A DNA stretch of 64,000 nt from Thermonema rossianum DSM 10300. Lineage in GTDB: Bacteria > Bacteroidota > Bacteroidia > Cytophagales > Thermonemataceae. Below the pieces are notes generated by a model that searched no databases, was not told the DNA's origin, and worked only from the letters and a program-made list of their open reading frames with translations. The stretch is from NCBI RefSeq assembly GCF_000426825.1, contig NZ_KE384579.1, positions 202,877 through 266,876 of the forward strand. Direction: 5' to 3'. Within the stretch, counting starts at the first letter, position 1, and each line of letters starts with the position of its first letter. The position numbers were made by a program, and so were the translations under genes. Shown in pieces: positions 1-51,243 of this stretch.

Positions 1-1748
1 TGGGCTTGCTGGCATCCAATGCCAAGGTGAGTGGTGAGATATGGTTCAATTCCAATAGCTTGGGGTGGGTGGATTTGCTGAGCCTGTCCCCAAAACAAAT
101 GCGCTCGATTCGAGGGGGGGAAATAGCCATGGTCTTTCAGGAGCCCATGACTTCGCTCAACCCCGTGATGACCTGCGGGGACCAGGTGATGGAAGCCATC
201 CGCCTGCATCGCCCCGACTTGAGCAAGGAGGAGGCGCGCCAGCTGGTGTTTCGTAAGTTCCGCGATGTGCATCTGGATAGTCGCGATGAAGGCGACAGCG
301 ACGAAGCTGCCATGGCGCAACTCGAAAAAATCTATCACTCTTTTCCGCATCAACTGTCCGGGGGGCAGAAACAAAGAGTCATGATTGCCATGGCTTTGGC
401 TTGCGACCCGGAGCTTATTATCGCCGATGAGCCTACCACCGCCTTAGATGTGAGTACCCAGCGAGCCATTCTCGATATTTTTCAAGAGTTGACCTGCCGG
501 GAAGATATATCGGTTTTGTTCATCAGCCATGACTTGGGGGTGGTTGCCGAAGTGTCGGACCGCGTGATGGTGATGTATCGAGGCAAGCAGCGCGAACTGG
601 AAGATGTGCTCACTATCTTCGACAACCCGAAAGACCCTTATACGCGAGGTCTTTTCTCTTGCCGCCCACGGGTGGATTTGAGTTTCCTGGATACCTCCGT
701 TACACGCCTGACGCGCCTGCCCACCATTGCAGATTTCATTGAGGTGGATGCCCAAGGCAATGTGAAAGCCAAAAAGGTGGATAACATAGGTATTGGCGAA
801 ACCATCTTTTCGATGATAGACATTGAAGAAGAGTTATCGCAAAGCGAACAGCCCGAGCCGCCCTTGCCTGTGCTTAAAGTGGAAGGGCTGACCAAGACCT
901 TCTGGGTGAAAAAGAAAGACAAAAGGGGCAAGGAACGCTTCGTTGCCGTTGACAATGTGAGTTTCGAAGTCTTCAAGGGAGAGACCGTCGGTTTGGTGGG
1001 CGAGTCGGGATGTGGCAAATCTACTTTGAGCCGCCTGATTCTACGCCTTCTGGAAGCCGATGGTGGGCGTGTGGAGTTTGGAGTGCGTACCGGAGACGGA
1101 AGCATGCACTATCATGACCTTTTTGCGTTGAGTGAGCGCGCCATGCGTCCCCTGCGGCGTTATATGCAGATTGTTTTCCAAGACCCCTTTGCTTCGCTCA
1201 ATCCGCGCATGAGTATAGGCGAGATATTGACCGAGCCCATGCGCCTGTTTAAACTATATGGAAGCGCCAAAGAGCAAAAAGAGCGTGCCTTTAAACTCTT
1301 GGAAGACGTGGGCTTGGACCCCCGCCATGTCTTTCACCGCTACCCTCACGAGTTTTCGGGAGGACAGCGCCAGCGCATTTGCATTGCACGGGCTTTGGCT
1401 ACCGACCCTCAATTTATTATCTTTGACGAATCGGTGTCTGCCTTGGATGTGTCGGTACAAGCCGAAGTGCTGAATCTTATCAACGAACTGAAAGAACAAT
1501 ATCATTTTTCGTCTATCTTTATTTCCCACGACCTTGCCGTCATTCGTTTTATTGCCGACCGGGTGATGGTCATGAAGGATGGCAAGATTATTGAGACAGG
1601 AGATAATCGACAGATTTTTGAAAACCCCTCGCATCCTTATACCCGGGCACTTTTGGATGCCATACCCAAAGGTGATATTATTGCCATCAGGAAGAATATT
1701 GAAGAAAGAACTTCGATTCGCGGCAGCCGTACCCACAGCACCCCATGA
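1..1748 (+). CDS. Fused two-domain peptide ABC transporter ATP-binding protein (5' end outside window)
   Basis: This protein is the energy-coupling ATPase of a di-/oligopeptide-type importer, with both nucleotide-binding domains (DppD-like and DppF-like) on one chain. The reading frame is open to the left edge. The Walker A of the first domain is missing, so the gene starts upstream; the TTG at base 6 is not the true start. The first domain keeps its Q-loop ([11 protein letters not shown]), signature LSGGQKQR and Walker [12 protein letters not shown]. The second domain has Walker [10 protein letters not shown], the [12 protein letters not shown]-loop, signature FSGGQRQR and Walker B IIFDES, where the usual proline after DE is serine. 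The C-terminus carries the peptide-transporter tail motif [11 protein letters not shown]. Fused forms of this kind (YejF/GsiA-like) are known. No permease or binding-protein gene is visible downstream. Substrate is not determinable. Confidence 0.93.
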
Positions 1749-46528: not shown

Positions 46529-48475
46529 ATGCGTCGATTCGTCCTGATTCTGTTTTTTTTGCTGTTGATGGTTCCTTTTGGAGGACATGCCCAGCAGTAT
46601 TCAACCAAAAACAAAAAAGCCATTAAGTTGTATGAGCAGGCAAGTGCCAGCTTCCGTTTACGCGACTACGAAACGGGCATGAACCTGCTGTTACAAGCCG
46701 TACAAAAAGACCCCGCCTTTGTGGAGGCTCATATGTCCTTGGCGCATAACTTTCAACTGTTTGGTTACTTGCCCAAGGCTTTGGAGCACTACGAAGCGGC
46801 CGTAAAGGCAGATCCGAAAAGCCCCAAGGTAGTGGGCGCTTATTATACTTTGGCTACCGAATACTTAAAACAGGGGCGTTACCGGGAAGCGAAAGAGTAT
46901 GCACTGCGCTTTTTGAGTTTTCACCCTGAACCGAACAATTTCACCAACGACATTGAGCGGGTAGTGGCTTCGGCAGAATTTGCCTTGGAAGCCATGCAGC
47001 AACCACTGCCTTTTGAGCCGAAACCCCTGCCCGGCAAGGTGAATCGCGAAGACTACCTGCAGTATTTCCCTGTGCTTACTGCCGATGAAGAGATGCTTAT
47101 TTTTACGGCAAGGCGGAAAGAGCAAGGGCGCGATGAAGATATATTTGTAAGCTACCGGCAGGAAGATGGCTCTTGGGGCGAGCCGCAACCTTTGTCACCG
47201 GTCATCAATACGGCTGCCAGTGAAGGCACTTGTGCCATCTCGGCCGACGGCACCGTGCTGGTATTTACCTCTTGCCAGTCGCGGCGCGGCTATGGCAGTT
47301 GCGACCTCTTTGTTTCTTACCGTTATGGCAATGAATGGAGCACCCCCGTTAACTTGGGCGCCAACGTGAATAGTTCTTCTTGGGAGTCGCAGCCTACGCT
47401 GTCGCCCGATGGACGCGTGCTCTTCTTTGTTTCTGACCGCCCCGGTGGCATGGGCGAGCGGGATATTTACATGACCATGCGCGATGAAGACGGCCGCTGG
47501 CTGCCGGCTGTCAATGTGGGCGCCCCCATTAATACTTATGCCGATGAAGTATCGCCTTTCTTATATGCCAACGGCAAACGTTTGTTTTTTGCCTCGAATG
47601 GGCATGTAGGCATGGGCGACTTCGACCTGTATTATAGCGATTGGCATCGCGGGCGCTGGAGTGAGCCGGTAAACTTGGGCTATCCTTTGAACGATCATCA
47701 GTCGCAAGTGTCCTTGTTTGTTACTGCCGATGGCAAGAAAGGATATTATGCACAAGAGCAATGGGAGGGGCGCCGTCAGCTCTCGGCTATTTTGATGTAC
47801 TTCGACATGCCCCCGCAGCTCATACCCGCCGAACAAACAGCCTATGTGAAAGGCGTAGTGCGGGATGCCCGAACCGGCAAGCCTCTGAAAGCAGAAATAG
47901 AGTTGTTCAATGTGAATGAAGACAGCCTGATAGCACAGGTTTGGTCCGATACACTCACCGGCGAATACCTTATCGTACTGAATCAAGGAGCAGATTATGC
48001 ACTGGAAGTAAACAAAGCCGGTTATTTGATGAAAAGCCTTTCTTTCCGTCTTAAAGAAACGAATGATACTCTGCGCCCGGTGATACTGGACATAGAGCTG
48101 GAGCCCATTACGGCAGGCAGTAAGTTTGTTCTGTCGAATATCTTTTTCGATTATGGAAAATACACGCTCCGGGAAGAATCGAAAGCCGAGCTGCGCAAAG
48201 TGGTGGAGTTCATGCAACAAAACCCTGCAGTAACCGCCGAAATAGCCGGGCACACCGATGACATCGGCGACGAGAAAGCGAACATGGAGCTGTCGCTTCA
48301 GCGGGCAAAAGCGGTATATGATTACCTGATAGCGGCAGGCATTGAGCCCCGCCGCCTAAGCTATAAAGGCTATGGCGAAACACAACCGGCAGTGCCCAAC
48401 ACCTCAGACGCGAACCGGGCACAAAACCGACGCATCGAGTTTCGCATCATATCTGTAGAAAAAACAGGCGAATAG
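46529..48475 (+). CDS. TPR / PD40 propeller / carboxypeptidase-regulatory / OmpA-domain envelope protein, PorE-like
   Basis: This 648-residue exported protein has a signal peptide ending GHAQ. The domains in order are TPR repeats (about 25-140), a PD40-type beta-propeller (about 175-425; repeats SPDGRVLFFVSDRPGGMGERD and NGKRLFFASNGHVGMGDFD), a carboxypeptidase-regulatory-like domain (about 435-520; VRDARTGKPLKAEIELF) and an OmpA peptidoglycan-binding domain (about 530-645; IAGHTDDIGD). This is the architecture of PorE of the type IX secretion system, which is however a lipoprotein. Here the signal lacks a lipobox. Similar proteins with other roles are common in Bacteroidota, so PorE identity is only a possibility. 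Confidence 0.88.
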   Translation: MRRFVLILFFLLLMVPFGGHAQQYSTKNKKAIKLYEQASASFRLRDYETGMNLLLQAVQKDPAFVEAHMSLAHNFQLFGYLPKALEHYEAAVKADPKSPKVVGAYYTLATEYLKQGRYREAKEYALRFLSFHPEPNNFTNDIERVVASAEFALEAMQQPLPFEPKPLPGKVNREDYLQYFPVLTADEEMLIFTARRKEQGRDEDIFVSYRQEDGSWGEPQPLSPVINTAASEGTCAISADGTVLVFTSCQSRRGYGSCDLFVSYRYGNEWSTPVNLGANVNSSSWESQPTLSPDGRVLFFVSDRPGGMGERDIYMTMRDEDGRWLPAVNVGAPINTYADEVSPFLYANGKRLFFASNGHVGMGDFDLYYSDWHRGRWSEPVNLGYPLNDHQSQVSLFVTADGKKGYYAQEQWEGRRQLSAILMYFDMPPQLIPAEQTAYVKGVVRDARTGKPLKAEIELFNVNEDSLIAQVWSDTLTGEYLIVLNQGADYALEVNKAGYLMKSLSFRLKETNDTLRPVILDIELEPITAGSKFVLSNIFFDYGKYTLREESKAELRKVVEFMQQNPAVTAEIAGHTDDIGDEKANMELSLQRAKAVYDYLIAAGIEPRRLSYKGYGETQPAVPNTSDANRAQNRRIEFRIISVEKTGE

Positions 48476-48542: not shown

Positions 48543-49388
48543 ATGAAAAAACGAATTGTTCAAGTAGGCGATATTGCTTGTGGCAGCGAGCAACTATTCC
48601 TCATCTCCGGTCCTTGTGTGATTGAAGATGAAAGCATTATGATGCAAACAGCCGAGAAGCTGAAAGAAGTGTCTGAGCGCCTCGGTATTCCTGTTATTTA
48701 TAAGTCTTCTTTTCAGAAAGACAACCGCAGTTCTTTGAAATACTACACCGGTCCCGGCTTGGAAGAAGGTTTGCGTATCTTACAAAAGATAAAAGACACA
48801 TTCGGCTTTCCGGTGCTTTCAGATGTGCACTACCCCTCGCAGGTAGCCCCTGCAGCCGAAGTGTTGGACGTCATACAAATACCGGCTTACTTGTGCATGC
48901 AAACCGACCTGATGGTGACGGCTGCAAAGACCGGCAAGGTAATCAACATTAAGCATGGGCAGTTTTTGGCACCCGAAAATATGATTAAGCCCGTGCAGAA
49001 GGCAGTAGATGCCGGCAATGACCAAATCATATTGACCGAGCGCGGTTATACCTTTGGCTACAACGACTTGATTGTGGACCCGCGTAGCTTCTACCATCTG
49101 AATCAGACCGGCTATCCGGTGGTGTTCGACATTACCCACTCTATTCGCAAATACGGTATTCCGAGTGCCGACCCGCGCGGGGGCGCCCGTGAGTTCTTGC
49201 CTACGATTGCGCGTGCCGGCGTGGCAGCCGGCGTGGATGGTGTCTTCATTGAAACACACCCCAACCCCGCCGAAGCTCTTTGTGATGCGGCCAGTCAAAT
49301 GTGCGTTTTCGACCTTGAAGAGTTTTTAAAACCCTTGATTGAAATTCACAATTTAGAAGTAAAATACCGACCTGTCTTTACCGAATAA
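48543..49388 (+). CDS. kdsA: 3-deoxy-8-phosphooctulonate synthase (Kdo8P synthase)
   Basis: KdsA condenses arabinose 5-phosphate with phosphoenolpyruvate to Kdo 8-phosphate for lipid A-core synthesis. The 281-residue protein matches the family throughout: FLISGPCVIE, KSSFQKDNRSS, GPGLEEGLRIL, SDVHYPSQ, VIQIPAYLCMQTDL, VINIKHGQFLAPENM, ERGYTFGYNDLIVD and FDITHSIRKYG. The Cys in GPCVIE (Asn in the E. coli enzyme) indicates the metal-dependent class II type. It is the first gene of a tight three-gene unit with an aldolase-CBS fusion and a KdsC-like phosphatase. Confidence 0.95.
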   Translation: MKKRIVQVGDIACGSEQLFLISGPCVIEDESIMMQTAEKLKEVSERLGIPVIYKSSFQKDNRSSLKYYTGPGLEEGLRILQKIKDTFGFPVLSDVHYPSQVAPAAEVLDVIQIPAYLCMQTDLMVTAAKTGKVINIKHGQFLAPENMIKPVQKAVDAGNDQIILTERGYTFGYNDLIVDPRSFYHLNQTGYPVVFDITHSIRKYGIPSADPRGGAREFLPTIARAGVAAGVDGVFIETHPNPAEALCDAASQMCVFDLEEFLKPLIEIHNLEVKYRPVFTE

Positions 49389-49412
49389 ACAGAAACAAAG
49401 CAAATAAAGCCT

Positions 49413-50438
49413 ATGGAATTGTATCTTGACTCTGCCAATATGCAGGAAATCGAGGAAGCCTTCAAGTTAGGTTTCCTGACCGGTCTTACCACCACGCCTA
49501 CCTTTATGCATCGTGAGGGCATCCGCGATATCGATGCCACCATTATCAAGCTGTCGAAGATGGTGCCTATTTTGCAGATAGAGGCACTGGGCGAAACCGC
49601 CGATGAAATAGTAAAAGAAGCCGAACGCCTCATTGGGCTGGGCTTGGACAAAGAAAAGACGGTCTTTAAAATCCCCGTTTCTTTGGAAGGGGTCAAAGCT
49701 TGTAAGCGCCTGACGGACCAAGGCTATAAGGTGAATATCCACTTGGTATATACCTTGCAGCAAGCCTATATGGCCATGGCTGCCGGGGCTACTTATGTTT
49801 GCCCCTTGGTAGGACGCCTGCAAGACCAAGGACATGACGCATTGGCGCTGGTAGAGCAGTGTGTGAAGGCAGTGAACTACTATGGCTATCCTTCGAAAAT
49901 CATGTTTTCGTCGGTGCGTCATCCCGAGCATGTGCGCAACGCCATCAACATAGGTGTGCATACCTGTACGGTGCCTTGGAAAGTAATGAAGATGCTCACC
50001 GAAAACAACTTTACCACACTGGGTACGCAGCAGTTCTTTGAGCATACCAAGCTCATGACCATGCATGTGAAAGAGGTGATGAAGCCTTACAACCCGGTGG
50101 TGCGTTTGGACCAAACCGTGCTGGATGCAACCATTCAAATGACGGAGTCGGGCTTTGGCGCCGTGACCGTGGTGGACGACAAAGGCGACATCGTGGGTAT
50201 CTTTACCGACGGAGACTTGCGCCGCCGCTTGCGTGAGAACGGCAAGGATATCTTGCAAAAGAAAATGAGCGAGTTTGAATGGCACAAGCCGCTGACCATT
50301 GAAGCCGGGGCGCTGCTGCATGAAGCCGTGGAGATGTTGCGCCAAAAGTCGGTAGATAATTTGGTGGTAACTGAAAACGGCAAGCTTGTGGGCATGCTGG
50401 ACGTGCAGGACCTGTTGCAACTAAATATTTTTGTATAA
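49413..50438 (+). CDS. Fusion of fructose-6-phosphate-aldolase/transaldolase-like domain with a KdsD-like CBS pair
   Basis: In this 341-residue protein residues 1-215 are a class I aldolase barrel of the TalC/FSA type. The start MELYLDSAN carries the conserved D6; the Schiff-base lysine is K86 in VFKIPVSLEG; YVCPLVGRL keeps the phosphate-binding Arg; the length suits FSA. Unusual residues are T28 where FSA and transaldolases have Asn (GLTTTPTF versus TTNPS) and H110 where FSA has Thr109. Residues about 220-341 are two CBS domains. The segment DIVGIFTDGDLRRRL matches the CBS pair at the C-terminus of arabinose-5-phosphate isomerase KdsD. The gene sits 24 bases after kdsA and 2 bases before a kdsC-like gene. 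I infer a role in supplying arabinose 5-phosphate; this is untested. Confidence 0.9.
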   Translation: MELYLDSANMQEIEEAFKLGFLTGLTTTPTFMHREGIRDIDATIIKLSKMVPILQIEALGETADEIVKEAERLIGLGLDKEKTVFKIPVSLEGVKACKRLTDQGYKVNIHLVYTLQQAYMAMAAGATYVCPLVGRLQDQGHDALALVEQCVKAVNYYGYPSKIMFSSVRHPEHVRNAINIGVHTCTVPWKVMKMLTENNFTTLGTQQFFEHTKLMTMHVKEVMKPYNPVVRLDQTVLDATIQMTESGFGAVTVVDDKGDIVGIFTDGDLRRRLRENGKDILQKKMSEFEWHKPLTIEAGALLHEAVEMLRQKSVDNLVVTENGKLVGMLDVQDLLQLNIFV

Positions 50439-50440
50439 AC

Positions 50441-51172
50441 ATGTTGACAAGTCAAATTACCGACCGCTTCCGTAGCATAGGAGGAGAGTTTTGTGTTTCG
50501 CCTCAAGAGCTGCGGGAGCGGCTCGATAACACCCGCATCTTCCTTTTCGATTGGGACGGTGTGTTCAATGCCGGCGAAAAAGGAAAGGGTGCCACAAGCC
50601 TCTATGCCGAGGTGGACTCTATGGGCTTGAACATGCTGCGCTTTGGCTACTATCTGCAAACCGGTGAAATCCCTAAAATGGGCATCATCACCGGGCAGGA
50701 AAACCATTCCGCCTTTCAGCTGGCTACACGCGAACACTTCGATGTGGTCTATTATAAGTTTCGTCATAAAGCCCTGGCATTGGAGCACCTCGAAGCAGCG
50801 TATGGCATTCAGGACTACGAAGTGGCCATGACTTTCGACGACATTGCCGATATCACCGTGGCAAAACGGGTCGGCGTGCGTTTTCTGGTGCGCTGCACGG
50901 CTGCTGTCTTATTTAACGACTACGTAAGAAAAAACAACTACTGCGAGTACATTACCGGTCACGAAGGGAAGGATAATGCAGTGCGTGAAATCAGTGAGCT
51001 GGTATTGGGTATTCGTGGGGTGTTTGAGCAGGCCATCGAAGAACGTTTTGATTACTCGGATAAGTTCCGGGAGTATATGCGCTTGCGTAACAGCATAGAA
51101 ACACGCTTTTTTATTGGGCACGACGACCATGTAGTGCCTATTGATGTGCACATTGAAGACCATCGCTATTAG
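50441..51172 (+). CDS. kdsC: KdsC-like HAD phosphatase (Kdo 8-phosphate phosphatase)
   Basis: KdsC removes the phosphate from Kdo 8-phosphate. The 243-residue HAD protein has the nucleophile motif FLFDWDGVF (D37, D39), motif II MGIITGQE, the lysine in KFRHKALALEHL, the acidic motif MTFDDIADITVAKRVGV, and the C-terminal GKDNAVREISELVLG. The last corresponds to the GxxGAVREV-x-DLLL tail of KdsC. It is about 60 residues longer than E. coli KdsC because of N- and C-terminal extensions. A strong terminator follows. Position behind kdsA and the aldolase-CBS gene supports the assignment. Confidence 0.85.
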   Translation: MLTSQITDRFRSIGGEFCVSPQELRERLDNTRIFLFDWDGVFNAGEKGKGATSLYAEVDSMGLNMLRFGYYLQTGEIPKMGIITGQENHSAFQLATREHFDVVYYKFRHKALALEHLEAAYGIQDYEVAMTFDDIADITVAKRVGVRFLVRCTAAVLFNDYVRKNNYCEYITGHEGKDNAVREISELVLGIRGVFEQAIEERFDYSDKFREYMRLRNSIETRFFIGHDDHVVPIDVHIEDHRY

Positions 51173-51210: not shown

Positions 51211-51243
51211 AAGGGCACTCATGTGTATGAGTATGCCCTTTTT
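51211..51243 (+). terminator. Rho-independent terminator of the Kdo operon
   Basis: AAGGGCA/TGCCCTT outer stem and CTCAT/ATGAG inner stem around GTGT, followed by T-run, 38 bases after the kdsC-like stop. Confidence 0.88.

Follow-up and report, generated by a model that had tools for sequence, protein, structure and literature searches.

A stretch of 64,000 nucleotides of contig NZ_KE384579.1 from Thermonema rossianum DSM 10300 (positions 202,877 to 266,876; hereafter the window) carries, in tandem, the kdsA gene for 3-deoxy-8-phosphooctulonate synthase, a gene that fuses a transaldolase/FSA (TAL/FSA) barrel to a pair of CBS domains, and a gene for a KdsC-like phosphatase, the two gaps being 24 and 2 bases. 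The fusion protein very likely replaces KdsD, the SIS-domain isomerase of the pathway to the lipopolysaccharide sugar 3-deoxy-D-manno-octulosonate (Kdo), an enzyme that many Kdo-making bacteria appear to be without. From its sequence and predicted fold we consider it quite probable that the fusion is a non-orthologous supplier of D-arabinose 5-phosphate (A5P) to KdsA where KdsD is absent, acting through Schiff-base chemistry.

The fusion gene (49413..50438, plus strand), identified with Pfam, NCBIfam and an AlphaFold2 model, encodes 341 residues and is the proposed A5P-forming enzyme. Its barrel (residues 1–222; 49413..50078, plus strand) is matched by Pfam TAL_FSA (PF00923) at residues 3–222 with an E-value of 3.4e-35, above the Pfam cut-off, and scores 167.5 bits with TIGR00875 (transaldolase/FSA), under the curated cut-off of 245.95. 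The CBS pair (residues 219–336; 50067..50420, plus strand) is matched in two stretches by PF00571. The models of KpsF/GutQ/KdsD reach this CBS half only (positions 153–267 of 268 in TIGR00393), and the SIS domain is thus absent from the fusion, the N-terminal part being TAL_FSA where KdsD has its isomerase domain. An earlier note, made from the letters of this DNA, had described kdsA, the fusion and a kdsC-like phosphatase in tandem, with the SIS domain lacking and a terminator behind; the Pfam and NCBIfam matches confirm the genes and domains, and the terminator is plausible.

In the source genome (2.95 Mb in 24 contigs, 97.52% complete) a KdsD was not found. The five matches to the SIS domain (PF01380) all lie in other enzymes: two in a single open reading frame of 613 residues that reads as GlmS, and the remaining ones in MurQ and GmhA (both above the NCBIfam cut-offs) and in a bifunctional phosphoglucose/phosphomannose isomerase. 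A KdsD hidden elsewhere in the genome is ruled out by the identity of all five matches together with the profile counts in relatives. KdsB is present above cut-off, as is a second, separate transaldolase, which exceeds the TalC/FSA cut-off and keeps the motif TTNPS (Asn28) and Thr109.

The distribution of the fusion and KdsD was followed across 148 genomes from the order to which the source belongs, many of them metagenome-assembled and those of one genus not independent. KdsD above cut-off was counted in 72 genomes, KdsA above cut-off in 119 and the fusion, at E ≤1e-60, in 54. The fusion alone was present in 52 genomes, KdsD alone in 70, both in 2 and neither in 24 (Fisher p 1.5e-18, kinship ignored); among the 119 genomes with KdsA, the corresponding numbers were 48, 68, 2 and 1 (p 1e-29, kinship ignored). 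KdsA above cut-off was missing in two KdsD genomes and four fusion genomes, three of the latter (G469, G540 and G541) having partial KdsA matches and the fourth (G515, 75% complete) none. In the lone genome with KdsA and neither supplier, G562, the kdsA match (bases 151–921, minus strand) lies at the edge of a contig, and this kdsA is sister to that of the fusion genome G537, in which the fusion match starts 69 bases past the kdsA match; with such spacing, a fusion in G562 would run off the contig. Counted by genus (n = 80), 29 had the fusion only, 38 KdsD only and 10 neither, and the three mixed genera comprised two with fusion or none and one with fusion or both. Since fusion-only and KdsD-only genera occur side by side within seven families (f2, f4, f59, f60, f64, f72 and f73), the swap between the two suppliers seems to have taken place repeatedly.

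A wider set gave the same pattern. From it 80 related fusion loci were kept, belonging to Bacteroidota and to bins labelled Desulfobacterales, Deltaproteobacteria, Ignavibacteriales, Chlorobiota and SAR324; 56 fusion genomes, those of 50 of these loci plus six others, were tested for KdsD. It was above cut-off in two (G410 and G405); among the matches listed, the other 54 reach the KdsD model through CBS domains only, from model position 135 onward. The two samples overlap, G405 being identical in contig and coordinates to G528 of the order sample, so that one genome is common to this count and to the 2 of 54 fusion genomes with KdsD in the order. All 50 fusion genomes examined for KdsA carry it above cut-off. 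In a phylum-wide sample the full fusion was found in 6 of 395 genomes, and the E-values then jumped from 2e-145 to 3e-44 for the next-best matches, which end by residue 238 among those listed; by sequence, the fusion family is set off from ordinary transaldolases by a clear gap. Misassembly or a one-off fusion is ruled out by the 80 related loci and by the presence of the fusion in 54 of the 148 genomes of the order. This near-exclusion, together with the lack of KdsD in the source genome, lends strong support to the idea of the earlier note that the fusion takes the place of KdsD. The note had proposed a search for a SIS-domain KdsD, and had named its presence in every fusion-bearing genome, joined to a lack of A5P-forming activity, as speaking against the idea; KdsD is absent from the source and rare in the fusion-bearing relatives (2 of 56; 2 of 54).

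Of the three KdsA models in NCBIfam, two score the KdsA of the window (48543..49388, plus strand) above cut-off (354 vs 242 bits and 341.4 vs 314) and the third, NF009109, below it (279.7 vs 457). A tree of 82 KdsA rows shows two deep clades of 20 and 62 rows. Its bootstrap support had yet to settle completely and its basal branches are long, and weight is therefore placed on nested placements only. The smaller clade comes entirely from KdsD genomes or from the kdsD side of genomes with both suppliers; the larger one, to which the window KdsA belongs, holds 59 fusion rows (G562 counted in) and three rows from genomes that have KdsD and lack the fusion (G249, G494 and G550), these three being nested among the fusion rows with starred support. 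The depth of this separation, with the other-clade rows fetched being 41–50% identical to the window KdsA, and the merely remote likeness of the phosphatase to KdsC could point to a cassette for some other ulosonic acid, with the fusion yielding another sugar phosphate and this KdsA clade using it. We regard this as highly improbable, since KdsA of the same clade is found together with KdsD, with no fusion, in G249, G494 and G550, and since KdsB is above cut-off in the source genome. The occurrence of fusion-clade KdsA with either supplier is an argument for one and the same sugar being delivered by the two; on sequence grounds, one supplier seems to have been exchanged for the other while this type of KdsA was retained.

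G249, a single contig of 99% completeness, and its sister G494 are the firm cases of such a swap. In both, kdsA still adjoins a KdsC-like phosphatase and KdsD lies elsewhere, with kdsB next in G249. The two double genomes of the order, G503 and G528, have two kdsA each, one per clade: the match to the fusion-type kdsA ends 120–149 bases before the fusion, and the other-clade kdsA is on the contig with kdsD. Beside kdsA in G249 (L154:2963-5060, minus strand), and similarly in L155, an iron-type alcohol dehydrogenase and a LegC/PseC-like aminotransferase were seen, both under the model cut-offs, a pair that we presume to resemble KdnB/KdnA of 8-amino-Kdo synthesis.

The predicted structure of the fusion (AlphaFold2; mean predicted local distance difference test, pLDDT, 91.1; predicted template modelling score 0.67) was compared with known structures by re-ranking the top Foldseek chains only, rows within 1 Z being taken as tied. 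The best structures for the barrel are transaldolases (Z about 28), among them 3r8r from B. subtilis (Z 28.1, root-mean-square deviation 1.5 over 208 aligned residues). Alignment of 91 fusion rows (90 distinct) with 19 canonical rows demonstrated that Asp6, Glu57, Lys86, Asn108, Arg135, Ser167 and Arg169 are invariant in all 91. Lys86 (codon 49668..49670, plus strand) aligns with the Schiff-base lysine 85 of FSA, and Glu57 is found in place of the FSA-type Gln59, which the alignments reject for this barrel. The canonical donor pocket (Asn28, Thr109, Phe/Tyr131) is missing from the fusion, where the changes N28T, T109H and F/Y131L are fixed in 91 of 91 rows as Thr28 (codon 49494..49496, plus strand), His110 (codon 49740..49742, plus strand) and Leu132; the canonical rows have Asn and Thr in 19 of 19 and Phe or Tyr at the third position. 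Further fixed changes are Phe165 (canonical Ala or Val) and Ser166 (canonical Ala), and position 130 is Cys in 85 fusions and Thr in 6, being Ser or Ala in the canonical rows. In transaldolase structures, positions 28 and 130 presumably bind the CH2OH group of dihydroxyacetone as donor, and Arg135, Ser167 and Arg169 the phosphate. Judged from the alignment, the pocket is conserved towards the phosphate and remodelled towards the donor.

A plain transaldolase paralogue is ruled out by the separate TalC of the source genome and by the fixed pocket changes in every fusion row. The same facts bear on the possibility that the fusion is an ordinary transaldolase/FSA under CBS control and that A5P comes from another enzyme, such as the isomerase domain of GlmS, GmhA or the phosphoglucose/phosphomannose isomerase, all of which are present in the source genome. 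Eukaryotic GFAT has the fold of glucosamine-6-phosphate synthase (SIS). Eukaryotic GFATs are reported to complement an E. coli kdsD gutQ mutant, and the human enzyme to isomerise ribulose 5-phosphate to A5P (PMC11301363). E. coli has its own GlmS, and yet the double mutant is reported to need A5P (PMC11301363). With a TalC above cut-off already in the genome, with altered pocket residues in all fusion rows, and with the near-exclusion with KdsD left unexplained by a GFAT-type supply, this explanation appears very unlikely.

In the mechanism that we propose, bacteria lacking KdsD would have the fusion deliver A5P to KdsA, and Lys86 would form a Schiff base with an aldose 5-phosphate at its aldehyde carbon. 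A5P corresponds to fructose 6-phosphate minus the C1 CH2OH, and both sugars place four bonds between the carbon that forms the imine and the one that bears the phosphate; A5P would therefore bridge the lysine and the phosphate clamp just as fructose 6-phosphate does. The changed residues of the CH2OH-holding pocket, the kept phosphate clamp and this geometry together speak for an aldose 5-phosphate bound to the lysine as a Schiff base, and the retained lysine itself favours imine chemistry. Two such reactions may be considered. Ribose 5-phosphate might be remodelled at C2, by retro-aldol and re-aldol steps or by an enamine step aided by Glu57 and the new His110, to which we give a serious, if less than even, chance; this route would need no free glycolaldehyde and would give Glu57 and His110 a role. 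Condensation of glycolaldehyde with glyceraldehyde 3-phosphate to A5P, the aldol route of the earlier note, is nearly as likely, and the slight lean to ribose 5-phosphate is due to no supply of free glycolaldehyde being evident. The same role could also be filled by other chemistry, the barrel isomerising ribulose 5-phosphate to A5P through a cis-enediol at Glu57/His110 with no Schiff base. Such an enzyme would retain the known substrate of KdsD and agree with a Glu-His pair fixed in 91 of 91 rows; on the other hand, Lys86 and Asp6, equally invariant, are not obviously needed by a pure enediol isomerase, and by bond counting C2 of ribulose 5-phosphate is one bond too near the phosphate for a site like that for fructose 6-phosphate. 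We hold it to be very improbable.

The CBS pair, modelled alone (pLDDT 92.7), has its best structural match in 4o9k, the corresponding pair from a putative KdsD of Methylococcus (Z 18.1, root-mean-square deviation 2.3, 126 aligned residues, 36% identity), and the pairs of putative KdsD in 3k2v and 3fna rank third and fourth, so that three of the four top structures are of KdsD type, with ties within 1 Z. The ligand of 4o9k is presumably CMP-Kdo (the cytidine monophosphate-activated sugar). The top profile models on this half are kpsF, GutQ and KdsD, and the pair was accordingly counted as a C-terminal CBS pair of KdsD type. Kinship with the KdsD pair is suggested by these sequence and model comparisons. 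A transfer of the pair from KdsD, claimed in the earlier note, is favoured by the best matches and stops short of being proven, as the profile scores overlap. The CBS pair would probably exert feedback control, as is supposed for KdsD.

The earlier note had also raised conservation of the order kdsA-fusion-kdsC. Among the 60 of 80 related loci with enough flank, the full order, with kdsA upstream and the phosphatase downstream, recurs in 20; 16 have kdsA only, 13 the phosphatase only and 11 neither. In the order, 28 of 31 loci could be assessed, giving 10 with both neighbours, 1 with kdsA only, 6 with the phosphatase only and 11 with neither (flanks are short and the sets overlap). Fusions distant from kdsA are found in Raineya (L007), Thermoflexibacter (L009) and Runella (L057 and L058). 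Labilibacter marinus Y11 (G433; C17 and C41) has two fusion copies, L071 beside kdsA and L061 not, and the second copy is possibly a paralogue with another use. At L074:6001-7016 the fusion match breaks into two frames at about 6810, by frameshift or sequencing error.

The phosphatase of the window (50441..51172, plus strand; 243 residues) is a remote KdsC-like HAD phosphatase, under both KdsC cut-offs with 42 vs 208 bits in NF007019 (E 7e-11) and 34.2 vs 106.95 in TIGR01670; it had no Pfam match at E 0.001, and KdsC/YrbI chains are among its weak PDB matches. In selected genomes, a YrbI/KdsC phosphatase above the TIGR01670 cut-off was present in 8 of 40 with the fusion only, in both genomes with the two suppliers and in 33 of 38 with KdsD only. 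This rarity in fusion-only genomes indicates, as far as profile scores go, that the cassette phosphatase probably replaces KdsC too. We would tentatively go further and propose a complete alternative module for Kdo-8-phosphate, comprising a KdsA clade, an A5P supplier and a phosphatase specific to it, in which the supplier would be a lysine-dependent retro-aldol/re-aldol C2-epimerase of ribose 5-phosphate; its range would cover Bacteroidota and the bins labelled Desulfobacterales, Ignavibacteriales, Chlorobiota and SAR324. A transaldolase-derived activity of this kind fits no enzyme class known to us.

Several observations weigh against the replacement of KdsD and the chemistry proposed. Coexistence is possible, as in G410, where the fusion, KdsD and a single kdsA occur together; G434 and G435 (the genomes of L064 and L066) have, alongside the fusion, two KdsA copies of very different scores, the second being of the other type by score, and no KdsD above cut-off; and G443, with the fusion, has by score the other-type KdsA only. 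The fusion stands apart from both partners in the 11 of 60 loci mentioned above, the assembly of the swap genome G550 is a draft broken into 560 contigs (94% complete, with 4% contamination), and metagenome-assembled and congeneric genomes are numerous in the samples. A profile of the fusion CBS pair scores most KdsD pairs above other CBS pairs, but the ranges overlap. As to the reaction, we know of no evident source of free glycolaldehyde, no search having been aimed at one; dihydroneopterin aldolase of folate synthesis is the sole source known to us, and it seems too small for the needs of lipopolysaccharide. A ribose 5-phosphate 2-epimerase on this fold was not found in the open-licence literature searched.

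Behind the phosphatase gene, a stem at about 51211..51240 (plus strand) followed by a T run is plausible as an intrinsic terminator; the 56-base region folds with -15.1 kcal/mol (z -2.48), and a strict consensus terminator scan did not include the stem among its calls. Upstream of kdsA, an OmpA-type protein (window 46529-48475) is related to the CHU_0125 and PorE families, under their cut-offs.

With KdsD/GutQ/KpsF (TIGR00393) the fusion shares the inferred product, the place in the pathway and the C-terminal CBS pair; it differs by having a TAL/FSA barrel and no SIS domain, and its chemistry must therefore differ from that of KdsD. With TalC/FSA transaldolases such as E. coli FsaA it shares the fold, Asp6, Lys86 and the phosphate clamp, and differs by N28T, T109H, F/Y131L, Cys/Thr for Ser/Ala at position 130, the CBS pair and the frequent linkage to kdsA. 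FsaA is reported to serve as an A5P aldolase, joining glycolaldehyde and glyceraldehyde 3-phosphate, in engineered E. coli (PMC9947464), and the title of PDB entry 3upb names a transaldolase 'in Covalent Complex with Arabinose-5-P'. Like the fusion, LmbR (PMC5854111) and, by its PDB title, the sulfofructose transaldolase BmSF-TAL are transaldolase barrels recruited to another sugar, neither being named with A5P supply for Kdo in the parts of those sources consulted. Eukaryotic GFAT, as reported in PMC11301363, is likewise an A5P source other than KdsD, but a eukaryotic one that works by isomerisation of ribulose 5-phosphate. No paper that the searches of open-licence PMC articles listed announces a transaldolase-CBS fusion for Kdo in its title or the start of its abstract, subscription journals being mostly outside this scope.

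The entry step to Kdo in bacteria is, as far as we know, taken to depend on SIS-type isomerases. The fusion would represent, within one order, a second solution to this step, apparently interchangeable with the first in several families. If this is true, it would account for the missing kdsD in annotated genomes, would show a transaldolase barrel turned to another sugar, would offer synthetic chemistry a natural A5P-forming aldolase or epimerase, and would bear on KdsD as a drug target.

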